The notes: generated from the sequence alone by a model not told the origin. Shown: positions 12,319 through 34,792, counted from the stretch's first letter. The stretch: DNA of 60,809 nt from Candidatus Bathyarchaeota archaeon (GCA_029882535.1 JAOUKM010000005.1:1-60809), one strand, 5' to 3'. Numbers and translations are program-made.

Positions 12319-13629
12319 ATGTTGCGAACTATCGAAATTTCGATGGTGATTCTTATCTTGGCGGTTGCATTCATTGCAGCAACGTTTTTCGCAGTTTTAC
12401 CGTCTCCCAAGCAAATTTCATCTCCAAACCTTCGACAACTTGCCCTAACAACACTTCAAGTCCTCGACGTGGATAAATCATTAACTGAAGCCATTTTTGA
12501 AAACCCCACAGACCCAGCTTGGACAGATTTGGAGATAGCTCTCTCTGCCAGCTTGCCACCTAACATAGTCTACAATCTAACCGTCTACGACATTACTAAG
12601 AGCAGTGGCGACGCTCTGACCTACAGGAAGTTTCACTCAATCACAAATTCTGAAAGCGGACTTGGAACCGACTCAGAAGCGTCCACATACCTCGTCATGT
12701 CAACAAACGTAACATTCGCAGTCACGCCGCAGAAAATCTCTGGAACGCTTTATATTCTCAACTGCAGCGACGCAAACGGATGGTGGATCACAGGCTACAC
12801 TAGCCAAAGCCTAGCTGAAGACCTTTACAACTTGCTTTCACCTTATTTCAACACAACCATAATGGTGCAAAACACAACAGACCTTGGGCATATTTTGGAC
12901 GGCACCGAGATTTCTAGTCTCCCCTACGAGAACGTTACAAACGCAGTGATAATAAACACCTGCGGAGAAGCGGTGCCAATTCCCTCAGCATATGCTGACT
13001 CATACCCTCGAGACTCTTACGCTGAATACTGTTACGAACTTGGCAAAAGAGTCAACCAGTACAACTGGACCTGGGTAAGCATCGTTGGATACCCGTTCTT
13101 CTATGTTAGTAACACCATAAAATTAGCAAGCAGTGACAACAGTTGGGGAATTTACGGAATGCGAATGGTAACTGCAGGTGGACTTAATTCCTTTCTTAGA
13201 GGCTTAGACGTAGAAAACTATCCATCTTACAGCTACGACGGCTCATGGATTACAGGAAGCCCCGGCGTTGTCTATTTTTCCACAGAAGCATATTACTATT
13301 CAAACTATTACGGCATTTATCCTTCGCCCTACCAAACCGCAACACGTGCATTGCCTTCTTGGATCCAAGGCACGTATCACACAACTGTAACGGCAAGCGT
13401 GTTCAATCCAGTGAGCGACCGATATGCTGCCGCAACTTTCAAACACACTGGCACAGGAGCTTTTACTGCAATTGGGTTAACGAGAACGCCTGATATAAGA
13501 ATAACCGCTCTTTCTCTACTCATGTATTACCACCCAATCATCTACAAATCTGAATTCACTTTAACTGCTGGCGAAAGACCCACACAAAGGCTTATAGTAC
13601 TACAGCTTAGCCAGCAAGGAGGAAGTTAA
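12319..13629 (+). CDS. Pilin-like surface protein, function unknown
   Basis: The 436-residue protein has a hydrophobic helix at residues 5-28 (IEISMVILILAVAFIAATFF) and a long Tyr/Ser/Thr-rich exterior with many sequons. Residues ~140-300 resemble an alpha/beta domain (TLYILNCSDANGWW, ENVTNAVIINTCGEAVP), which is more than a simple pilin globule. The start follows AGGAA by two bases and the gene sits 9 bp after its neighbour and 1 bp before the next. It is probably an accessory or minor pilin, perhaps at the pilus tip. No enzymatic motif could be assigned. Confidence 0.7.
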   Translation: MLRTIEISMVILILAVAFIAATFFAVLPSPKQISSPNLRQLALTTLQVLDVDKSLTEAIFENPTDPAWTDLEIALSASLPPNIVYNLTVYDITKSSGDALTYRKFHSITNSESGLGTDSEASTYLVMSTNVTFAVTPQKISGTLYILNCSDANGWWITGYTSQSLAEDLYNLLSPYFNTTIMVQNTTDLGHILDGTEISSLPYENVTNAVIINTCGEAVPIPSAYADSYPRDSYAEYCYELGKRVNQYNWTWVSIVGYPFFYVSNTIKLASSDNSWGIYGMRMVTAGGLNSFLRGLDVENYPSYSYDGSWITGSPGVVYFSTEAYYYSNYYGIYPSPYQTATRALPSWIQGTYHTTVTASVFNPVSDRYAAATFKHTGTGAFTAIGLTRTPDIRITALSLLMYYHPIIYKSEFTLTAGERPTQRLIVLQLSQQGGS

Positions 13630-23729: not shown

Positions 23730-24114
23730 AATTCCAACTCACACAGTAATTAGTGAATAATATTAAAATTGTTTTGTTTAGAAACTTTCAATAAGCTTTA
23801 TGTACGCGCCTCCTACCGGAGGTACCTCCATGTCATTTGGGATAAACTGACAGCGTGTGCGTATAAAGATATGATAGCCAAGTCAGAGAGTTCTTATCGG
23901 TAAACTTCTTGTTTAATAAAGCCCATTAACACTAGCTTCTACGAAGGGTAACACATAGAAAAAAGAGGGAGTAAATTGGGAAAAGCTAGATTCGGTAAGT
24001 GTCTACTTTCGGCTTCTTTCCTTTCTTCTCTACTTTCAATACTCCTTTTTTCTGGAACTTATAAAACCTTAATTAGTTATGTTCGACATTTTATTATTAG
24101 GAGAGGTTCAGATT
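23730..24114. other. Intergenic region with a short alternating hairpin element
   Basis: No gene is evident. At 23809-23829 the sequence CCTCCTACCGGAGGTACCTCC can form either CCTCC/GGAGG hairpin, because the central GGAGG pairs with copies on both sides. The region ends with the promoter of the small exported peptide gene. Confidence 0.4.
24057..24067 (+). promoter_or_regulatory. TATA box of the first exported-peptide gene
   Basis: ACTTATAAAAC lies 48 bases before the ATG. Transcription would begin near 24088, leaving AGGAGAGG (24099-24106) as a strong ribosome site eight bases before the start. The good promoter and ribosome site argue that this short gene is real. Confidence 0.5.
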
Positions 24115-24312
24115 ATGAAGAGAAAGTACTTAATCTTGATTTTAGTAGGAATCTGCGCCTTTGCTCTATTTGCTGTATTCGTAGCAAATATACAGGCTGA
24201 TCAGAATTTCAAAGCTGAGTATGGCACACTCCATCCACCAAGCTTAGGTGTGAAGCCGAGGGGTATGGGGGACATTCCTGTGAATGGAATACCATGTAGT
24301 CCTCACCCATGA
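24115..24312 (+). CDS. Small exported peptide precursor, copy 1 (65 aa)
   Basis: The product starts MKRKYLILILVGICAFALFA, a signal or anchor helix, with a plausible signal peptidase site NIQA/DQNF. The remaining ~37 residues are hydrophilic, Pro/Gly-rich and end DIPVNGIPCSPHP. The gene at 26807-27034 has the same plan: MKR start, SA/DLSF after the helix, and a C-terminus TIPKNGLPAPSR. The shared features are ADxxF at the mature N-terminus and IPxNGxPxxP at the C-terminus. No known family is recognised. A secreted signalling peptide, a bacteriocin-like peptide or a small membrane-anchored factor are all possible. A canonical TATA box and Shine-Dalgarno precede it. An upstream in-frame ATG at 24079 would disrupt the signal and is rejected. 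Confidence 0.65.
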   Translation: MKRKYLILILVGICAFALFAVFVANIQADQNFKAEYGTLHPPSLGVKPRGMGDIPVNGIPCSPHP

Positions 24313-24356
24313 GAGTTGTGTGCACAAAAAAAGAAGGGATAGAGGGGCGAAAATAT

Positions 24357-24635
24357 CTAGCCTATGATCTGGTGAAGGATTAGCGCTACGATTAGAGCGA
24401 TTATGGAAATCACCATGATTCGTGTTCCGTAAAGAAAATTTGTTTTCTGCCCTTGCCTGAGCCCTGAAAACCACAAGATTGCACCACACATGATTAGAAA
24501 AGCGGGAAAACCATACATCATCGTTTCGTCGTAAATAGAGCCAACTAGAGTTACGATGGCGACAATTATTATAGCAAATATATCTAGGATTGGAAATTTT
24601 GCAAAAGCCTTCTTGCGTGATTCTTCCCAAGTCAT
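24357..24635 (-). CDS. Small three-helix membrane protein
   Basis: The 92-residue protein has a polar N-terminus (MTWEESRKKAFAKFP) and three hydrophobic helices near residues 17-34, 42-58 and 70-91, with a basic loop (RQGQKTNFLYGTR) between the second and third. No enzyme motif is present. It converges on the first exported-peptide gene with 44 bp between stops, so it is not in an operon with it. Function unknown. Confidence 0.6.
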   Translation of the reverse strand: MTWEESRKKAFAKFPILDIFAIIIVAIVTLVGSIYDETMMYGFPAFLIMCGAILWFSGLRQGQKTNFLYGTRIMVISIIALIVALILHQIIG

Positions 24636-24725
24636 CTATGCGTTTCCACCGTTTCATGTCGAATTTCTTGTATCCTAAGTTTCTATTGATTTCCTATAAA
24701 AAAGATGGGTGTTTGCTAAAAGCTT

Positions 24726-24911
24726 CTAGCTTTTTGCAATCAATTCTACTAGAGCTGTAAACCGCAAGCATACAGCCTCGGAAACAAAGCTCTCAACAGA
24801 GTTGTGTGCTAACCAAGGCGATTTCTCCATAATAAACTGGAACATTTTCACGTCCACGTCAACGGTTACAGGCTTAGTTCTGCCATGTCGCTTTCTTCTC
24901 TGTCTCCACAC
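24726..24911 (-). CDS. Small basic DNA-binding-like protein overlapping its upstream neighbour
   Basis: The 61-residue product starts with a very basic segment (RQRRKRHGRTK) and continues VTVDVDVKMFQFIMEKSPWL...SVESFVSEAVCLRF, a strand followed by helices as in ribbon-helix-helix proteins. The first 46 bases overlap the end of the gene at 24866-25201 in another frame. The core resembles the upstream protein's VPVHVTLFQPFHDFLKEHLE, so the two may be diverged duplicates. An alternative is a frameshift joining both frames into one protein with two similar domains. The start codon is not certain. Confidence 0.5.
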   Translation of the reverse strand: MWRQRRKRHGRTKPVTVDVDVKMFQFIMEKSPWLAHNSVESFVSEAVCLRFTALVELIAKS

Positions 24912-25201
24912 AACTCCTTAGTTATCTCTATGTGGCTCCGCTTGCTGAACCAGTTTTGGCTATTCACATAAGAATCTTCATTGGGCGTTACCATGTCATG
25001 TAATTTGTGGGCTTCCTTGTAGATCATCTCCCTGCAAACGTCTGCTATGGTTTGTTTGCTGCCGAAAAACTCCAAGTGTTCTTTTAGAAAGTCGTGGAAC
25101 GGCTGAAACAGCGTTACGTGCACTGGAACCATGTCTCCACCTAACTCTTTCGCGAAAGCTTTCGCAAGAGCCTCTTTCTTTTCCGTTACTTGCTCACTCA
25201 A
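24866..25201 (-). CDS. Hypothetical protein, ribbon-helix-helix-like core
   Basis: The 111-residue protein has a helical N-terminus (TEKKEALAKAFAKELGG), then VPVHVTLFQPFHDFLKEHLEFFG and a helical TIADVCREMIYKEAHKLHDM. The strand-helix-helix order is compatible with a ribbon-helix-helix regulator, but no operator or named family is seen. It is upstream of, and overlaps, the small basic protein at 24726. Together they look like a two-gene regulator cassette. Confidence 0.55.
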   Translation of the reverse strand: MSEQVTEKKEALAKAFAKELGGDMVPVHVTLFQPFHDFLKEHLEFFGSKQTIADVCREMIYKEAHKLHDMVTPNEDSYVNSQNWFSKRSHIEITKELCGDREESDMAELSL

Positions 25202-25361
25202 ACCCTTTCACCTTTCTCTAAGCAAGTGTGAAACCTTTTGCCAACAAAAAATCTTGTTCAGATAATACGCATTCTCTAGCCTAGATTATTTGCTTAAGTT
25301 TTTCATTTTACGTTATTTTTATAGGTGAGTAGCTTCCCTTTTTTGAGTAAGGTGCATAAGA

Positions 25362-26063
25362 GTGAGCAGCCCTCACATCAACACACAATCATGGAGACGA
25401 CAATTTATGTTATACAAGCTTGCTGAGATAGGAGCTTACCATAGAACAGTGAAAGTCTCTACCCAATATCTAGCAGAAAAAACTGGTGTTTCTCAACAAA
25501 CAGCCTCTCGCAACCTTATAGAACTCGACAACCTAGGCTGGATTAAACGGTCAATTACGCCAGAGGGCTGCCTAATCACGTTGGCTGATGTTGGGAAAGC
25601 GCAGTTGAAGAATTTGTATTCAAAGTTAAAAGTCATAATAGAAGCGGCTCACCCAATTTCAGTAACACTTGAAGGCGTAGTGTTTAGCGGTCTAGGCGAA
25701 GGTGCCTACTACGTTAAGCAAGACGGCTACCGAAGACAGTTCATTGAAAAACTTGGATTCGACCCATATCCTGGAACTTTAAACATCAAGTTAACCTCCG
25801 ATTATGACATGAAAACCAAACAAGAGCTGGAAGGCTATCCAGCTATAGAAATCGAAGGCTTCAAAGATGAGTTGCGAACGTTTGGCGCAGTTAAATGCTA
25901 CCCGGCTTTCATAAACAACAAAGTGAAAGCTGTCTTAATGTTTGCTTTTCGAACTCATTACGATTCCTCTGTGTTAGAAATCATCGCGCCTCAATACTTA
26001 CGTAACCAGCTTAAAATTAAGGATGGACAGAAAGTGAAGCTTGAAATCTTCACAATGCCCTAA
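25362..26063 (+). CDS. ribK: CTP-dependent riboflavin kinase with N-terminal HTH (RbkR type)
   Basis: Residues ~10-85 form a winged helix (VSTQYLAEKTGVSQQTASRNL) and residues ~100-233 the archaeal riboflavin kinase domain: GVVFSGLGEGAYYV, GFDPYPGTLNIKL and a C-terminal IIAPQYLRNQLKIKDGQKV. The enzyme phosphorylates riboflavin to FMN using CTP. HTH-fused versions (RbkR) are known to repress riboflavin genes in archaea. The start is GTG at 25362 with AAGGTG seven bases upstream; an in-frame ATG at 25407 would remove part of the HTH. Its stop overlaps that of the convergent rhomboid gene by four bases. FAD synthetase, the next step in the pathway, is encoded at 34887-35363. Confidence 0.92.
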   Translation: MSSPHINTQSWRRQFMLYKLAEIGAYHRTVKVSTQYLAEKTGVSQQTASRNLIELDNLGWIKRSITPEGCLITLADVGKAQLKNLYSKLKVIIEAAHPISVTLEGVVFSGLGEGAYYVKQDGYRRQFIEKLGFDPYPGTLNIKLTSDYDMKTKQELEGYPAIEIEGFKDELRTFGAVKCYPAFINNKVKAVLMFAFRTHYDSSVLEIIAPQYLRNQLKIKDGQKVKLEIFTMP

Positions 26064-26644
26064 TAAACCATTAAGATCTTTCGATTTTTCGCCAACCAAT
26101 ATCCAATTCCTAATCCCGCGACAAGGCCGCCAAAATGAGCTAGTATGTTTGTACCTGCAGAAACGGTAATCAGGAGGAACATAAAAGCGAAAAGCAAAGC
26201 CCCCATCACAGAACGTCCCACCACCTTCCTCAAATACACTATGACGGCACCGAACAATCCGAAGATGGCGCCAGAAGCTCCAGCAGATACTGTTAATGGG
26301 GGTAAGAATAGGCTGAGAAGGTTACCTATTAGCCCTGAGGCTAAGTAGACAGTATAGTACTCGGTGTCGGTGAAGAGTTCTTCTGCTCTTAACCCGAATA
26401 TCAATAGGAAGAACGTATTACTGGCGAGGTGAACTATATCAACGTGAACGAACATGGATGTGATTAGCTGCCACCACCAACCATAATGAAAAACCGCGTA
26501 ACCATACTGGCCATATACCTCTAGGACACTGTCTGCAGTGAAAATGAAGTTGTGCCCTAAGAAAGACGTATAGATGTAAACCGCTAAGTTAATGACCACC
26601 AAGAAGAATGTCGGTGAAAACCCGTAGGTTCTACGTACGTGCAT
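26060..26644 (-). CDS. Rhomboid family intramembrane serine protease
   Basis: The 194-residue protein has six membrane helices and the rhomboid catalytic pattern: HLASNTFF (His/Asn of helix 2, near residues 72-76), GASGAIFG (nucleophile Ser, near 124) and AHFGGLVAG (catalytic His, near 169). Rhomboids cut substrate helices within the membrane and release their outer parts. A small exported peptide with an N-terminal helix is encoded divergently 162 bp away, a possible substrate, but no data support that beyond position and topology. It overlaps the riboflavin kinase stop by four bases. Confidence 0.92.
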   Translation of the reverse strand: MHVRRTYGFSPTFFLVVINLAVYIYTSFLGHNFIFTADSVLEVYGQYGYAVFHYGWWWQLITSMFVHVDIVHLASNTFFLLIFGLRAEELFTDTEYYTVYLASGLIGNLLSLFLPPLTVSAGASGAIFGLFGAVIVYLRKVVGRSVMGALLFAFMFLLITVSAGTNILAHFGGLVAGLGIGYWLAKNRKILMVY

Positions 26645-26713
26645 CTTCTAACCTCCGAAGATTTCATGGTGCTGTAAGTTACCAACTATTTTCTTAGCGC
26701 CTTTATAAAAAGA

Positions 26714-26752
26714 GCGTGCGCAAACAGCGTCTATGTCTTTTAGTTCGCACGC
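26714..26752. repeat. GC-rich inverted repeat upstream of the second exported-peptide gene
   Basis: GCGTGCG (26714-26720) and CGCACGC (26746-26752) are perfect inverted copies with a 25-base loop. A similar pair lies downstream of the same gene (27196-27257). Alternating purine-pyrimidine runs like these recur in several intergenic gaps of the window. Confidence 0.5.
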
Positions 26753-26806
26753 GCAAAATCTTATTAGTCAGGTTAGACTTTTTTTATGTTAAGAGAAGCT
26801 GAGGCT

Positions 26807-27034
26807 ATGAAGAGAGTATTGTTTTTAGCTCTGGGTCTGGTCGCAATCTTTATTCTTGGTTTTTTAATGTTGTACTCATCAAATACTTCAGCTGATTTAA
26901 GCTTCGGGCGTAAACGCACGCCTGGTGGGACATCTGATGATTATGTGCGTGAACATGGGTCATGTACAAATAGTGCTCCAGTTAGAGGACCAGCAACTAT
27001 TCCTAAAAACGGACTGCCAGCTCCCAGTCGGTAA
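26807..27034 (+). CDS. Small exported peptide precursor, copy 2 (75 aa)
   Basis: The product starts MKRVLFLALGLVAIFILGFL, a signal or anchor helix, with a probable cut NTSA/DLSF, leaving ~46 hydrophilic residues that contain one Cys (HGSCTN) and end GPATIPKNGLPAPSR. It matches copy 1 (24115-24312) in its MKR start, ADxxF after the helix and IPxNGxPxxP near the C-terminus, while the middle differs in sequence and length. That pattern, conserved ends with a free middle, is what one expects of a processed peptide family. An upstream ATG at 26786 adds seven polar residues; the ATG at 26807 gives a better signal peptide and the same MKR start as copy 1. Rhomboid protease is its divergent neighbour. 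Confidence 0.6.
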   Translation: MKRVLFLALGLVAIFILGFLMLYSSNTSADLSFGRKRTPGGTSDDYVREHGSCTNSAPVRGPATIPKNGLPAPSR

Positions 27035-27397: not shown

Positions 27398-28141
27398 TCA
27401 GCAATCCCATTCGGCACGAAAGTTTCCGGTGCACCTCACTACGTCGTATATATTGATTGTCCAATCATCATCATGCTTCAAGTCTGCGTACGGGTTCCAG
27501 TTACTGTCTCCTCTTTTAGACCAATAGATACCAGTGATCTTAACGATATCATATATGTCCACATCCCCGTCCCAGTCAACGTCTCCTTTTAACGAACTCA
27601 TCACAGGATGCTCGACTGGATTATAATCTATATTGTTTAAACTGATATTGTGTGGAGGTCCCCCTGTATAGTCGTGCCAATAATTTCCAAGGGTACTATA
27701 GTTCCAACTGTTTGATTAATCATCAGTCTTTATGTTTGACGTGTAAAAGTTGTTGTCGTAAATGATGTTGCTGTTTGATGATTCTAAGTGGATAGCTGTG
27801 GTATCGTATTCTTTGTATTGAATATTGTTATGAGTTATGTTGTTGTTGCAAAAGGATTGTAAATAGACCCCATATTCATTCTCTATGATGCCATTTTCAA
27901 CTAGGGTAGTGTTGTGAGACGATAATAAGTAGACACTGTACGCTGTGTTGCTTTTGACACTGCTGTGAATTATAGTATTGTTGCTTGACCAAAGCATACA
28001 GATTCCATGATAATTGTCTTAAAATCTCGTTGCCTCTATTACAGAGTTCGTTGTAATCACAAAAAGCAGACCTTGAGAGTTATTCGTCAAATTTAAGCCT
28101 TTCACAGTAACGGCCGTAGAGTTTATGATTGCAGTCGTCAT
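27398..28141 (-). pseudogene. Decayed beta-helix (NosD-like) and dockerin surface protein
   Basis: One minus-strand frame runs through this interval but is broken by TAA at 28019-28021 and TAA at 27716-27718. The pieces read as NosD-like beta-helix repeats (SSNNTIIHSSV, NNNITHNNIQY), then the family's closing NYWHDYTGGPP, and a C-terminal dockerin (GDVDWDGDVDIYDIVKITG). The second dockerin loop is degraded (DLKHDDDWTINIYD). The N-terminus, with signal peptide and cohesin as in the intact neighbour at 28224-30488, is missing. It is probably an inactivated paralogue of that gene, in opposite orientation. Because both interruptions are clean in-frame TAA codons without a frameshift, stop readthrough is formally possible but less likely. 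Confidence 0.7.
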
Positions 28142-28223: not shown

Positions 28224-30488
28224 TTGATAAAAAAAGTATTCTCAGGAATAATGATAATTTTACTCATATTTGGCGCAAGTTTGGCTTGCAGAGAGGCAAC
28301 GTCAAATGTTCTTCAGCCTGAATCCACTGAAACTATTGTAAGATTTGAACCCCAATTTCTTAGAGTTTTTGTGAACGGAACATTTACAATAAAAGTGCTC
28401 GTCGAAAATGTTTCATCACTTTACGGCTTTGACATACAAATCACTTGGAACACAACATGCTTAAAATATCTAAATCACACCTCAACAGTCCCAGTAGAAA
28501 TATATACAGGCGGCTTACTCCATGAACCAATATTATGGATTAAGGATGAAGTAAATGAAACAGGCGTGCCTAATGCACAACCAGAGACACGATATCAAAT
28601 AATTATTTCCTCAATGGCTCCAGCACCAACTTTTAATGGAAGCGGCAGTGCTTTCACGATGAATTTTAAAGCCTTAAACCAGACAGGAATAACAACATTA
28701 AATTTCACAAGTATCAAAATAGGCGATCCTGTCGGCCAGCCTATTCTACATGCATCCTTTAATTCTGTTGTAGAAATAACAACACCCACGCAAACCATCA
28801 TTATTCCAGATGATTATTCGACTATCCAAGAAGCTATCAACCATGCAAATGAGGGCGACACGATCTATGCAAGAAATGGAACGTACTACGAAAATGTGGT
28901 TGTAAATAAGACAGTGGCCTTAATTGGAGAAGGAAAGAACAGCACAATCATCGACGGTGACGGAAAAGGCCACGTCATCGATGCAATGGCGAACAATGTG
29001 GTCATCAGAGATTTCACTATAACAAACAGCAAAGAGTGGGACAATGGCATTTATGTTTATACGTGGAACAACATAACTATTCAAAACAACAACATTGTGG
29101 ATAATTTTTTGGGTGTCGAGCTAAGGGAGTCGCTTAACAGTACGCTTAGTAATAACCGTATGATTGGCAACCAACTCAACTTTTTGGTTGGTGGAAGCAA
29201 CCTCTCACACTTCATTCATGATGTTGATTCGTCAAACCTTGTGGACGGTAGGCCAGTTTACTATTGGATTAACCGCAAAAATGAGCACGTCCCCGTTGAC
29301 GCTGGGTATTTGGCGCTCATAAACTGCACAAACATAATGGCTAAAGATCTATACATCAAAAATAACGGCGGCATACTACTGGTCAATACTAACAACTCGA
29401 CAATAACCCAAAACCACATAGAAAGAAACTGGTGTGGCATTATGGTGAGATGGTCTTCTAATAACACTATTTCTCTAAATAACATAACAAGAAACACATG
29501 GGACGGTGTCATTCTCAACCAGTCATTTCATAACACGATTTCTGACAACAACATAACAATAAACTACCAAAGAGGCGTAGTTCTAAGCTACTCATCTTAC
29601 AATATGGTTTATGGAAACAACGTAACAAAAAACCAGCGGGAGGGCTTCGATATTTCGGAATCCATGAACAATACGATTTCTGGTAACAACATATCAGCAA
29701 ACAACTATTATGGGATACTTTTTAGGAATTCATCGTACAATAAAGTTTTCCACAACAATTTCATCAACAACCCAAACGACCAAGTTTGTTCCGTCAACTC
29801 AGTGAACGTTTGGGACGATGGCTATCCTTCTGGTGGAAACTACTGGAGCGATTACGTAGGAATAGACTCCTATCATGGACCATATCAAAACGAGACAGGC
29901 GGTGACGGTATAGGCGATACATCATACCTTATAGACGAAAACAATACAGACACGTATCCGCTCATGAAACCTTACCCTTGGGACCCACACAACATAGGAG
30001 TAACAAGCCTCAAAACTTCAAAAACCATTGCTGGACAAGGATTCGCCGTTAACATAAGCATCACAGTTTTTAATTACGGCACCTCTGTCGAAACTTTTAA
30101 CGTGACCGCTTACGCCAACACCACAGCCATAGCGTCTCAAAACATCACTCTAACAAGCCTAAACTCTACTGCCGTCGCCCTCACTTGGAACACCACAGGT
30201 TGGTCTAAAGGCAACTACACCCTTAACACCTATGCCACCCCAGTCCCAGACGAAAAGGACATCTCTGACAATAACCTTACAAAAGGCTGGGTAGTTATAA
30301 CAATTCCAGGTGATGTTGACGGCGATTTTGACGTTGACATTTACGATGTCGTGAAGATTACTGGCGTTTACCGGTCTAAAATAGGCGATTCAGACTACAA
30401 GCCTAACTCAGACATGAACAGTGACGGCATAATCGACATCTACGACGTAGTCATCTGCACGAGCCACTACGGACAAAAAGACCCATAA
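28224..30488 (+). CDS. Secreted cohesin / beta-helix / CARDB / dockerin protein
   Basis: The 754-residue protein starts with a signal peptide (residues 1-27). A cohesin domain follows at ~38-190 (GTFTIKVLVENVSSLYGFDI; FNGSGSAFTMNFKA), then a right-handed beta-helix of NosD/pectate-lyase type at ~190-580 (YSTIQEAINHANEGDTIYA; many NNxI turns; GGNYWSDY), a CARDB/APHP-like beta domain at ~590-690, and a C-terminal dockerin with two calcium loops (DVDGDFDVDIYD, DMNSDGIIDIYD). Cohesins bind dockerins, so a protein holding both could self-assemble or crosslink its neighbours on the cell surface. The start is TTG at 28224 with AGGAG eight bases upstream. The beta-helix may bind or cut carbohydrate, but no catalytic residues can be assigned. 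Confidence 0.88.
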   Translation: MIKKVFSGIMIILLIFGASLACREATSNVLQPESTETIVRFEPQFLRVFVNGTFTIKVLVENVSSLYGFDIQITWNTTCLKYLNHTSTVPVEIYTGGLLHEPILWIKDEVNETGVPNAQPETRYQIIISSMAPAPTFNGSGSAFTMNFKALNQTGITTLNFTSIKIGDPVGQPILHASFNSVVEITTPTQTIIIPDDYSTIQEAINHANEGDTIYARNGTYYENVVVNKTVALIGEGKNSTIIDGDGKGHVIDAMANNVVIRDFTITNSKEWDNGIYVYTWNNITIQNNNIVDNFLGVELRESLNSTLSNNRMIGNQLNFLVGGSNLSHFIHDVDSSNLVDGRPVYYWINRKNEHVPVDAGYLALINCTNIMAKDLYIKNNGGILLVNTNNSTITQNHIERNWCGIMVRWSSNNTISLNNITRNTWDGVILNQSFHNTISDNNITINYQRGVVLSYSSYNMVYGNNVTKNQREGFDISESMNNTISGNNISANNYYGILFRNSSYNKVFHNNFINNPNDQVCSVNSVNVWDDGYPSGGNYWSDYVGIDSYHGPYQNETGGDGIGDTSYLIDENNTDTYPLMKPYPWDPHNIGVTSLKTSKTIAGQGFAVNISITVFNYGTSVETFNVTAYANTTAIASQNITLTSLNSTAVALTWNTTGWSKGNYTLNTYATPVPDEKDISDNNLTKGWVVITIPGDVDGDFDVDIYDVVKITGVYRSKIGDSDYKPNSDMNSDGIIDIYDVVICTSHYGQKDP

Positions 30489-30712
30489 ACTCCGTTTTTA
30501 TACTATTATCCCTATCCATTGACTTGATATGTGTGCGCGCAAAACGCATACGCTCCTGCACGCATATAGATCTGTGGCATCTGAACGAGGAAAGTTCTCT
30601 GGAGAAAAAAGACATAGGCTTAGCTTTAGGTGTATATATCTTTGCCAAAACTTATATACAATATTCCGCCAAAACTTAAATACGATTCTTCTTCTACAAT
30701 TAATGATGTGGA
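30489..30712 (+). promoter_or_regulatory. Intergenic hairpin and duplicated promoter before the cohesin gene
   Basis: A hairpin TATGTGTGC (30528-30536) / GCACGCATA (30558-30566) follows the dockerin gene by about 40 bases. GCCAAAACTTATATAC (30644-30659) and GCCAAAACTTAAATAC (30668-30683) are near-identical promoter boxes 24 bases apart, giving two predicted starts at about 30680 and 30705, just before the ATG at 30713. Confidence 0.55.
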
Positions 30713-31369
30713 ATGTCAAGGAAAATTTGCGTTATAGCAATTATTTCTTTGCTTTTGTTTGTGTCCTTTAGCCTAAGCATTAGTGTTGGATCCGAAAGCA
30801 ATCCGGAGCTACCTGACAACTATCCTACGATTTGTGTCCTTCCTGCCGAGATAACTGCTGAGGTTGGTGAAACTTTCACAATTAGCGTTGTCGTCTTGGA
30901 TCTTACCGATAACCTTTACGGATTCGACATCGAATTCGAGTGGGACGCCGCTATTATTGAATACATTAGCCACGTCGTCACGGCACCAGTAGAAAGCTAT
31001 GAAGAGGGAGTTCTAAACAGCCCTATTTTATCCGCAATAGATATAGTTGACCCAACTGCCGGAACCTACTTAGTTGCGTATGCTTCAATATCACCTGCTG
31101 AACCATTCAATGGAGACGGTGTTTTCTTTACTATGACCTTTGAAGTGCTCTCCTCATTTAATGAACAGCCATTTCAAATAGTCAGCGCGATGCTCTCCGA
31201 CGACAAAGGCCAGCCCATAATAGATTATTCACACCAAAATCAAGGGGCAACATTCGTGACGGGCGACGAAGTGTGGGAGTTTATACGCCAACGTGAGAAA
31301 GATCCGAAGGCAGAAGGCTGGCTGGAATGGTTTAGGACACAAATGCGGCGACATTGGGGTGTAGGCTAG
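30713..31369 (+). CDS. Secreted single-cohesin protein
   Basis: The 218-residue protein has a signal peptide (residues 1-25) and one cohesin domain at ~38-185 (AEVGETFTISVVVLDLTDNLYGFDIEFEWD; FNGDGVFFTMTFEV). After it comes a short charged, Trp-rich tail (WEFIRQREKDPKAEGWLEWF). It has no dockerin and no membrane anchor, unlike its neighbours, so it could cap or bridge dockerin proteins. Its cohesin resembles those of 28224-30488 and 31592-34792 in the same order of strands. Two duplicated TATA boxes precede it. The role of the tail is unknown. Confidence 0.85.
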   Translation: MSRKICVIAIISLLLFVSFSLSISVGSESNPELPDNYPTICVLPAEITAEVGETFTISVVVLDLTDNLYGFDIEFEWDAAIIEYISHVVTAPVESYEEGVLNSPILSAIDIVDPTAGTYLVAYASISPAEPFNGDGVFFTMTFEVLSSFNEQPFQIVSAMLSDDKGQPIIDYSHQNQGATFVTGDEVWEFIRQREKDPKAEGWLEWFRTQMRRHWGVG

Positions 31370-31591
31370 CACAAACCTCGTTACAACCCAGCGTCATTCC
31401 CCCCCTTTTTTTGTTAAACATTTTCGTTCGAATAATATTAAATTCAACCATGCACATTATTAACAGTGTTCTTTAAGGGAAAAACAACATACATGCGTGA
31501 AAAGTAGCAACGAAGCAGACAAACCATTAAGATAGAAGTTTATTCCATAAAAAATTATATAAAAATTATATCGTAGAAGGAGTTATAGTAG
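31370..31591 (+). promoter_or_regulatory. Intergenic region with tandem TATA boxes before the C25-like protease gene
   Basis: AAAAATTATA occurs twice in direct succession at 31551-31570, about 25-40 bases before the ATG at 31592. AAGGAG at 31577-31582 is the ribosome site. A C8 and T-run at 31398-31413 after the cohesin stop may act as a T-rich terminator. Confidence 0.4.
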
Positions 31592-34500
31592 GTGATGACC
31601 TTGTACAGAAACATACGTGCAACATTGGTTTTTTCGATCTGTTGTTTCATGATTATATCAACAATTTCAACAGGTGTCCTTAGGATCAAACATTTCCAGT
31701 TATCTGATCAAGAAAGTTTCAACTCAGCAACAAAAAGCAAAGATAAAAGCACAGAACGACTTGTGACGCTGACTAAGACTTACACTTTACACAACTCAAT
31801 CATAGTTGATTTGGCTTTTCCCTACCCAATTATGAATAGCCCCCCAAGCTATGATTCTGTTGAAATGCTAGATCTGTCTAAACATGGCGCTCCTGGTGAG
31901 CCAATTCTACCTTTCAAAACAGTCAAGCTTTTGATTCCGCAAGGCAAAGAATTACAGAGCATCAACATCACTCACAGTAATAGAAAAACTTTGGAAGGCA
32001 AGTTTAATCTAGAGTATGGAAAAACACCGCTACCTATTTCTTCTTCTACTCCATTTGTAGACCAACCAAATCAAGAAATCTATAGTTCCACAACACCGTT
32101 TCCTGGAGTATTGCTTTCGCAGGTATCAGAACAATACTTACGAGGTTACAAAATACTTCTACTTACACTTCATCCAGTTCAATATATTCCCAAAACAGGA
32201 GAACTGTTCTATTTCCAGAACGTGACAGTCACCATAAATCTGACGGAGACCAGTGAAATTTCGCTGATGTTCAGAAATTTGCCAAAAGATATTAAACTCG
32301 TTCTAAGCCTAGTGGATAATCCTGAAGCAGTAGAAACATACACTGATACAATAACATCCAGGCGACCGACGAGCATTGTGAATTCATCAGAGTCATACAA
32401 CTACGTAATCATAACAAATGCCGCCTTAAACTCTTCATTCCAACCTCTAGTAGAGGGGAAAGTCCTGAAGGGACTCAACGCAACTACTGTGTTGGTGGAG
32501 GACATTTTGAATGATCCAGACTATTTCTGTAACGGCTTGCATGGCGATGGTTGTGGAAGCCAATTTAATGGAACTGCAGCGCGTATTAGAAATTTCATAA
32601 AAGATGCATATCAAAATTGGGGCGCCGAATATGTTCTGTTAGGTGGAGATAGTGAGATCGTTCCTGTAAGAGGCGTCTACGCCTACGTTGACGATACCAT
32701 AGATCGCAACATTCCATGTGACATGTATTATGGAGCCCTTGATGGAAGTTGGGATAATGATAACGACACTATATTCGGAGAGGGTGTCTTCGATGAAGAG
32801 TCCCCAGAAAATGGAACCGCTGGAGAAGAAGCCGATTTCCTTGCTGAAGTATACATAGGAAGGGCAGCAGTTGAGACGGCGGAAGAGGCAACGAACTTTG
32901 TGAACAAAACTCTGGAGTATGAACAGAGCACTGACGAATCCTACCTCAAGAAGGCCTTGATGATTGGCGAAGAACTTGACGACGAAACCGAAGCCGGAAA
33001 CAGTAAAGACCTTGTCACAGACATAATCCCGCAGTACACGACAAAAAGATTGTACCACAGAGATGGAACATTTAGTGTAGCTGCAGTAATCAATGAACTG
33101 AACAGCGGTACACACATAGTGAACCATAACGGACATGCTAATTCTCAGTCTGTTATGGGAATTGGAACTTCAACTGTCGACAGTCTCACTAATGATAAGT
33201 ATTGCATGATTTACAGTCTGGGTTGTTATGCTGCAGCGTTCGACAAGGATGAGGCAATCGCAGAACATTTCATCTTCAACTCAGGCGGCGCCTTTGCTTT
33301 CATAGGTAATTCAAGGTACGGCTGGTACGTTCCAGGCATGACGATTGGACCTGGAGAAACCTTCGATAGATCATTCTTCTCCGTGTTAAATGGCGGTACA
33401 AGGAATTTAGGCAAAGCGTTGCAACTTTCAAAAGAAAATCAATACAGCCAAAGTGTTGAAAGATGGACTTACTTCAATCTCAATCTTTTGGGAGACCCAG
33501 AAACAGAAATAGTAACTGACCTTATGGCACCTACTGATCATTTTCAAACAGTAACGGACTTGCTTACTTCGCCTTCCCTCGAAGGAGTTGTAGATCTTAA
33601 AGGTACGGCGAAGAGAGGAACAGCTGTTGGAGCGACATTTGCAAACTTCACGATAAAATTTGGAGGAGGAAGATACCCCGCATCTTGGCAGTCTCAAGGA
33701 ATCCAGCTGACCAACAATGGCCAGGACGAGATCGAAGATGACGTGTTGGCTACGTGGAACACAAGTGTGGTCACCCCGGGAATCTATACGCTTAAGCTCA
33801 CAGTGACTGACGAGGAAGGCAGAGTTGGAGAAGACTGGTGGATTGTTCGCGTTATACTGCCGCCCGCTGTTTGTGTGAATCCTCCGACAACCGAAGTTCA
33901 GGCTGGTCAAACTTTCACAGTGAAGATTAATATCACGGAAATAGAAGAACTCTGGAAGTTGGATATTCAAATTAACTGGAACACCACGCTGTTGGACTAT
34001 GTAAGCCACGAAGTAAAAATTCCAGTAGAATACTATTTTGGAGGTGTTTTACACACGCCAGTGACAATTTACAAGAACAAAGTAAACCAAACGACGGGGA
34101 CATATCAAATAGCAGCCGAATCTGAAAGTGGATCTTATCCCTTTACCGGCAGTGGAACCATCTTTGAAATGACTTTCCAAACCAAAGCTAATGGCACAGA
34201 CGTTCTAAAACTATCCAGCACTCTTTTGAACCAATATTTGCAACCTCTCTCCCACGTGAATATAAATGGCATCATTGAAATTGCCCCTGGCATCCACGAC
34301 GTGGAAGTCACAAATATTTCACCTGCTAGGACGGTTACGGGTCAGGGAACTGATCTCAGAATCAACGTGACCGTTTCAAACTACGGTACTTTCGGAGAAA
34401 ACTTTAATGTGACTGCGTACGCAAACGGAACGGTCGTTGGCACAGCCCAAGACTTTGTAGTTAGCAGCAACTGGACAACGATTACCATTATATGGGACAC

Positions 34501-34792
34501 AATAGGTTGGACTAAGGGTAACTACACTATAAGTGGCGATGTAGCTATTGGCTCGGAAGAAGCAAATACAAGCGACAACTCATTGGTTGACGGATGGGTC
34601 TTCGTGACTATTTCAGGTGATGTTGATGGCGATTTTGACGTTGACATTTACGACGTCGTGAAGATTACTAGTGTTTACTGGTCTCAGGTAGGCGATCCGA
34701 AGTACAAGCCTAACTCTGACATAGACGGTAACGGTATAATCGATATTTACGACATAGTAAAATGCACAAACCACTACGGAGAAAACTGGTAA
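31592..34792 (+). CDS. Secreted gingipain-like (C25) peptidase with cohesin, CARDB and dockerin
   Basis: The 1066-residue protein has a signal peptide (~1-30), a propeptide-like region to ~250 and a C25 (gingipain/clan CD) peptidase domain at ~265-635: the catalytic dyad is visible as His in HIVNHNGHA (~residue 511) and Cys in YSLGCYAAAFD (~548). A cohesin (~755-890), a CARDB-like domain (~895-1000) and a C-terminal dockerin (DVDGDFDVDIYD, DIDGNGIIDIYD) follow. It is likely a surface-displayed cysteine protease tethered through cohesin-dockerin contacts. Its dockerin is nearly identical at DNA level to that of 28224-30488, which implies recent duplication or gene conversion. Confidence 0.9.
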   Translation: MMTLYRNIRATLVFSICCFMIISTISTGVLRIKHFQLSDQESFNSATKSKDKSTERLVTLTKTYTLHNSIIVDLAFPYPIMNSPPSYDSVEMLDLSKHGAPGEPILPFKTVKLLIPQGKELQSINITHSNRKTLEGKFNLEYGKTPLPISSSTPFVDQPNQEIYSSTTPFPGVLLSQVSEQYLRGYKILLLTLHPVQYIPKTGELFYFQNVTVTINLTETSEISLMFRNLPKDIKLVLSLVDNPEAVETYTDTITSRRPTSIVNSSESYNYVIITNAALNSSFQPLVEGKVLKGLNATTVLVEDILNDPDYFCNGLHGDGCGSQFNGTAARIRNFIKDAYQNWGAEYVLLGGDSEIVPVRGVYAYVDDTIDRNIPCDMYYGALDGSWDNDNDTIFGEGVFDEESPENGTAGEEADFLAEVYIGRAAVETAEEATNFVNKTLEYEQSTDESYLKKALMIGEELDDETEAGNSKDLVTDIIPQYTTKRLYHRDGTFSVAAVINELNSGTHIVNHNGHANSQSVMGIGTSTVDSLTNDKYCMIYSLGCYAAAFDKDEAIAEHFIFNSGGAFAFIGNSRYGWYVPGMTIGPGETFDRSFFSVLNGGTRNLGKALQLSKENQYSQSVERWTYFNLNLLGDPETEIVTDLMAPTDHFQTVTDLLTSPSLEGVVDLKGTAKRGTAVGATFANFTIKFGGGRYPASWQSQGIQLTNNGQDEIEDDVLATWNTSVVTPGIYTLKLTVTDEEGRVGEDWWIVRVILPPAVCVNPPTTEVQAGQTFTVKINITEIEELWKLDIQINWNTTLLDYVSHEVKIPVEYYFGGVLHTPVTIYKNKVNQTTGTYQIAAESESGSYPFTGSGTIFEMTFQTKANGTDVLKLSSTLLNQYLQPLSHVNINGIIEIAPGIHDVEVTNISPARTVTGQGTDLRINVTVSNYGTFGENFNVTAYANGTVVGTAQDFVVSSNWTTITIIWDTIGWTKGNYTISGDVAIGSEEANTSDNSLVDGWVFVTISGDVDGDFDVDIYDVVKITSVYWSQVGDPKYKPNSDIDGNGIIDIYDIVKCTNHYGENW

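Follow-up and report, generated by a model that had tools for sequence, protein, structure and literature searches.

Two small genes, P1 and P2, from a genome of Candidatus Bathyarchaeota proved, on comparison of their promoters, leaders and open reading frames (ORFs), to be true diverged duplicates with common ancestry extending over all three, and they probably constitute a lineage-specific pair for small exported peptides that are switched on jointly from the duplicated promoters. The window, that is the whole stretch of 60,809 nucleotides that was analysed, is one contig (G000:C5) of a 1.73 Mb genome that is 97% complete. Among uncultured archaea, secreted small proteins form a large class that is still unread. 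The GMSC catalogue (PMC11364881) reports that smORFs and small proteins with secretion signals or transmembrane helices are proportionally abundant in archaea and that the majority lack annotation, and an orphan pair like P1 and P2 is therefore unsurprising in itself. In common with archaeal orphans of the GMSC type (PMC11364881), the two proteins are shorter than 100 amino acids, carry an N-terminal membrane helix, match no family and are lineage-restricted; unlike those orphans, they occur as two copies in one genome and have a promoter and a C-terminal motif in common.

P1 (24115..24312, plus strand) encodes a protein of 65 amino acids, MKRKYLILILVGICAFALFAVFVANIQADQNFKAEYGTLHPPSLGVKPRGMGDIPVNGIPCSPHP, and P2 (26807..27034, plus strand) one of 75 amino acids, MKRVLFLALGLVAIFILGFLMLYSSNTSADLSFGRKRTPGGTSDDYVREHGSCTNSAPVRGPATIPKNGLPAPSR, which starts 2,494 bp beyond the end of P1. 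In-frame start codons are also present upstream of both genes, at 24079 for P1 and 26786 for P2. An earlier note on this DNA had described two small ORFs with a common plan, and the translations place both where it had located them. The plan comprises MKR, a hydrophobic helix of about 20 residues, a putative cleavage site A/DxxF, a middle part that varies freely and, at the C-terminus, IPxNG[IL]P. The signal helix extends over residues 1-28 of P1 (24115..24198, plus strand) and 1-29 of P2 (26807..26893, plus strand), with predicted cuts at NIQA/DQNF and NTSA/DLSF, respectively. In an AlphaFold model P1 forms a single helix over residues 3-39, with a pLDDT of 85-95 for residues 1-30 and a low-confidence tail, which is presumably disordered beyond the helix. 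Each protein can be described as one hydrophobic N-terminal helix followed by a Pro/Gly-rich tail that is predicted to be disordered. The C-termini, GDIPVNGIPCSPHP for P1 and ATIPKNGLPAPSR for P2, end in IPVNGIP-CSPHP and IPKNGLP-APSR, and the motifs themselves, IPVNGIP (24274..24294, plus strand) and IPKNGLP (26999..27019, plus strand), are the only two occurrences of the degenerate DNA pattern for IPxNGxP in the 1.73 Mb genome. The longer pattern IPxNGxPxxP that had been quoted for both holds for P1 (IPVNGIPCSP) and fails in P2 (IPKNGLPAPS), which has S at the tenth position, such that the common core reduces to IPxNG[IL]P.

The strongest evidence for kinship lies in the DNA rather than in the protein. 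The promoter and leader of P1 (24063..24111, plus strand), with the 16-mer ATTAGTTATGTTCGAC at 24072-24087, is homologous to that of P2 (26755..26803, plus strand), with ATTAGTCAGGTTAGAC at 26763-26778. Over the stretch that begins at the TATA region and stops shortly ahead of the start codon, the two are about 74% identical and align with a score of 21; among 19,957 pairs of leaders drawn at random from the same genome the highest score was 19, and either leader scored at most 14.5 against the leaders of 568 other genes. Within 1.21 Mb of the genome, the 16-mer common to both precedes no further gene. P1 carries a TATA box, TTATAAAA (24059..24066, plus strand), 49-56 nt ahead of the start codon, and a Shine-Dalgarno sequence, GGAGAGGT (24100..24107, plus strand); in the genome as a whole TATA-like hexamers peak at about -45 and Shine-Dalgarno-like 4-mers at -15 to -11, and these typical positions hint at real expression. 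The signals of P2 are weaker, with no canonical TATA hexamer and a GAGG only 2 nt from the ATG. An RNA element in the leaders was considered and dropped, since they fold no better than shuffled sequences and the sole Rfam match was to a tRNA.

The proteins also align with one another. BLASTP of P1 against P2 gave E=1e-5, a value from a single comparison that partly reflects signal-helix bias, and the mature parts alone gave shuffle probabilities of p=0.0008 in global and p=0.007 in local alignment. Moreover, 14 of the 22 identical residues (Met excluded) are encoded by the same codon, about 7.5 being predicted at saturation. Leader homology, alignment of the mature parts and codon identity above saturation together argue for duplication and not convergence, and the relatedness that had been claimed for the pair is confirmed as that of genuine paralogues. 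Signal helices all look alike and short motifs recur, and on these grounds the likeness might be attributed to chance between two unrelated small ORFs, but the homology of promoters and leaders and the excess of identical codons render this extremely improbable.

The promoter is better conserved than the gene it precedes, with 74% identity against 49% of nucleotides and 36% of residues over the ORF. Differences between the two ORFs are distributed nearly evenly over the codon positions (30, 32 and 36), as expected with little constraint on most of the reading frame. These observations would suit an explanation in which only the promoter is functional or conserved and a duplicated gene has left the ORFs behind as decaying relics, as would the presence nearby of remnants of other secreted-protein genes (27398-28000, minus strand). 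Both frames have nevertheless stayed open, for which simulated neutral chances are about 0.12 and 0.08 (about 0.01 jointly), and within the tail conservation is highest at the last coded residues; we regard relic ORFs as quite unlikely. Over the C-terminal 16 codons the changes are mostly at third positions (one-sided Fisher p=0.06, from two paralogues only), and third-position identity is 0.31 at these codons versus 0.62 and 0.56. The comparison hints at protein-level constraint in P1 and P2 at the C-terminus only, where IPxNG[IL]P has changed less than the rest of the tail. A Ka/Ks-type check, which had been recommended for the pair, showed in these two sequences a third-position excess at the C-terminus that is no more than suggestive (p=0.06), and near-even changes over the whole ORF (30, 32, 36), with no sign of strong purifying selection on the frame as a whole. 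The description of conserved ends with a free middle derives from one comparison of two sequences.

Searches for further members were extended well beyond the host. Neither profile searches (E<=10) nor the degenerate motif revealed a third member in the same genome, and none turned up in the taxonomic family (13 genomes), the class (257 genomes) or the phylum (398 genomes), nor in viral contigs, phages (with P1 as query) or plasmids (with P2 as query). The genomes searched include no other of the same genus, and orthologues may therefore exist beyond the search. Neither protein matched Pfam, NCBIfam, PHROGs or PADLOC, and among PDB sequences there was no meaningful match, the best being a Nicastrin fragment at E=0.05. 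In the 257 genomes the C-terminal pattern with a nearby stop codon matched at 32 other places; the eight in-frame matches examined closely included no small ORF with a signal helix. Single-protein and profile matches from the family, class and phylum were rejected as chance, as the frames in which they fell were larger, unrelated or interrupted by stop codons. The best of them, in G138, is an ADPTFG following the signal helix of a 644-residue frame and resembles the pair only at the signal end. The earlier note had suggested that the two genes might belong to a family and had named a lack of further homologues with conserved ends as a result that would refute this; the searches returned no third member, which is that refuting result, and we treat P1 and P2 as a pair.

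P1 sits between a UbiA-type prenyltransferase gene and the convergent gene for a 92-amino acid membrane protein (24357..24635, minus strand), which is rare, occurring in one other genome of 257. Between P1 and P2 stands a conserved gene for an HTH and CTP-dependent riboflavin kinase, RbkR-like (25362..26063, plus strand; PF01982, E=3e-43; in 56 of 61 genomes), followed by a rhomboid protease gene (26060..26644, minus strand; PF01694, E=2e-26) that is divergent from P2, and a NosD/dockerin protein is also encoded among the neighbours. One of the neighbouring genes has its closest named relative in a Bathyarchaeota genome, and the host is most probably a Bathyarchaeia archaeon. The riboflavin kinase and rhomboid genes form a convergent pair which is kept in relatives that have no P1/P2-like peptides alongside, which makes either an improbable dedicated partner; in G009, where the whole region was read, other genes flank this core. 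For the same reason the rhomboid was rejected as a dedicated processing protease for P1 and P2. The neighbourhood of the two genes shows no evident gene for a receptor-like regulator, an importer, processing or immunity.

The duplicated, fast-diverging and exported nature of the peptides, and the equally patchy small membrane protein adjoining P1, recall an archaeocin-like two-peptide antimicrobial with the 92-amino acid protein as possible immunity protein. The sole other genome carrying the 92-amino acid protein, however, has no such peptide beside its copy, which led us to reject that protein as a linked partner. Double-glycine bacteriocins and microcins are distinguished by a GG leader and a nearby peptidase-ABC exporter; P1 and P2 have no GG leader, no ABC exporter was found among the neighbouring proteins scanned, PADLOC yielded no match and the peptides, judged by eye, show no clear amphipathic character. 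An antimicrobial role is accordingly unlikely.

Most likely, P1 and P2 are co-regulated orphan peptides, exported or membrane-anchored, with the C-terminal end as their constrained part. Sec would insert the precursor into the membrane, and cleavage of the helix at A/DxxF would free peptides of 37 and 46 residues; alternatively, the helix would be retained as an anchor and the tail displayed outside the cell. The hydrophobic stretch of about 20 residues is long for a cleaved signal, a point that counts against the explanation preferred here, and both cleavage between A and D and retention of the anchor are thus possible. The C-terminal dozen residues may be the working part and contact a partner, which may belong to the envelope, to a neighbouring cell or to a competitor, with the middle serving as a linker only. 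P1 and P2 most likely act as exported effectors or surface peptides that evolve fast.

The earlier note had suggested a possible peptide-signalling family. On such an explanation P1 and P2 would be secreted precursors, exported by Sec and cut, with the IPxNG[IL]P end read by a receptor that other cells of the population carry at their surface or inside. To our knowledge no case of archaeal peptide signalling has been described, and none was found in the titles and abstracts of the literature searched. The architecture of signal, free middle and conserved C-terminal end, and the co-regulation of the duplicates, are in keeping with such a role. Plant IDA-type hormones are likewise built from a signal peptide, a variable middle and a Pro-rich C-terminal motif; they belong to another kingdom, and any likeness would be convergence at most. 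RRNPP(A) propeptides are small Sec-exported precursors in which the message is carried by the C-terminal end, and P1 and P2 are likewise small precursors with an N-terminal export signal. From the RRNPP(A) communication propeptides of Gram-positive bacteria (PMC12700828) the two differ in their archaeal host, in belonging to no conserved family and in having no adjacent TPR receptor, no cognate cytosolic receptor of this type being present among their neighbours. With two sequences only, an end kept in no relative, no third member and neither a receptor nor an importer, processing or immunity gene evident alongside, the proposed signalling family is not upheld, and we consider signalling by P1 and P2 improbable. 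True paralogues can be recognised by a common plan, but an orphan present in two copies is too little to base a claim of signalling on.

The same genome offers a further argument in favour of signalling, since an unrelated family of exported peptides with a conserved C-terminus adjoins a regulator gene. It emerged when 1.21 Mb of the genome (about 70%) was surveyed for small ORFs encoding a signal helix, a survey that yielded 24 candidates and in which P1 was masked by a spurious antisense ORF. The peptide, P3 (G000:C4:13253-13453), resembles P1 and P2 in size, signal helix, free middle and a Gly/Pro-rich conserved C-terminus of the form ...G[IV]P-x; it differs in being conserved within the taxonomic family and in standing in line with an AsnC-type regulator, and no gene for a double-AsnC-type regulator is present near P1 and P2. 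Membership of P1 and P2 in the P3 family was rejected. They are absent from the P3-profile matches (hmmsearch, E<=10), hhalign joins them to P3 over no more than the first eight columns (probability 19.6), which also tells against signalling by the pair, and they lack the C-terminus GD-x-x-PG-x-G[IV]P-x. One local alignment of P1 with P3 gave p=0.008, before correction for the 24 candidates.

P3 occurs in seven of the 13 genomes of the taxonomic family (G000 and six others; alignment A2), and follows the plan that had been proposed for P1 and P2, in that a signal helix and a freely varying middle lead to an invariable C-terminal pattern, GD-x-x-PG-x-G[IV]P-[KT]. In all six readable flanks (G000, G001, G003, G005, G008 and G011) it lies directly upstream of, and in line with, a gene for a protein of about 380 amino acids, while in G009 the contig stops just past the peptide. 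The six products align lengthwise, and each of the three that were scanned contains two AsnC/winged helix-turn-helix stretches; a structure model of the regulator has a mean pLDDT of 53, which is of low confidence. A conserved exported peptide with an invariable C-terminal end, encoded in line with a transcription regulator, is what one would expect if peptide and regulator formed a pair, and P3 is a stronger candidate for archaeal peptide signalling than P1 and P2. It is rather improbable that several unrelated Sec-exported small peptides with conserved C-termini, namely P3 with its regulator together with P1 and P2, act as cell-to-cell signals in this archaeon; if true, this would be, as far as we know, the first archaeal peptide signalling.

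In six of the seven genomes (all but G011) P3 is divergent from a gene for a protein of about 117 amino acids, which is NitrOD5-related in the one case scanned. The divergent promoter of G000, G001, G008 and G009 contains an inverted repeat, TTTTCGT...ACGAAAA, that is a candidate operator. Over the last 24 codons of P3, comparison of G000 with G009 gave a dN of 0.08 and a dS of 0.54.

The promoters of the duplicated small exported-peptide genes P1 and P2 share a 16-mer, ATTAGTYAKGTTMGAC, located at positions 24072-24087 and 26763-26778 of the window, respectively, and no copy was found before any other gene in 1.21 Mb of the same genome when up to two mismatches were allowed. The shared sequence is possibly a binding site for a regulator.

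A separate family of small exported peptides, P3, is encoded on another contig of this genome (G000:C4; plus strand, positions 13253-13453 of stretch L074), with homologues at the matches in L155, L156, L157, L158, L159 and L160, and is present in 7 of the 13 genomes of the taxonomic family. Its members carry the conserved C-terminus GD-x-x-PG-x-G[IV]P-[KT]. A double-AsnC-type HTH gene lies directly downstream in every genome with a readable flank, and a gene for a NitrOD5-like protein is usually divergent from P3. Upstream of the peptide gene there is an inverted repeat, TTTTCGT...ACGAAAA (L074:13195-13228), which recurs at the equivalent site in L155, L156 and L157 and constitutes a candidate operator for the regulator adjoining P3.

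Between P1 and P2, the convergent HTH-riboflavin kinase and rhomboid genes (25362-26644) form a pair that several related genomes retain, but with different flanks. The minus-strand gene convergent with P1 (24357-24635) encodes a small membrane protein of 92 aa and of very patchy occurrence, with a single relative (52% identity) among 257 genomes of the class. At 27398-28000 the minus strand carries ORF fragments that resemble a dockerin and a NosD-like repeat and seem to be what is left of a gene for a secreted protein; beside them, at 28224-34792, dockerin and cohesin genes are intact.
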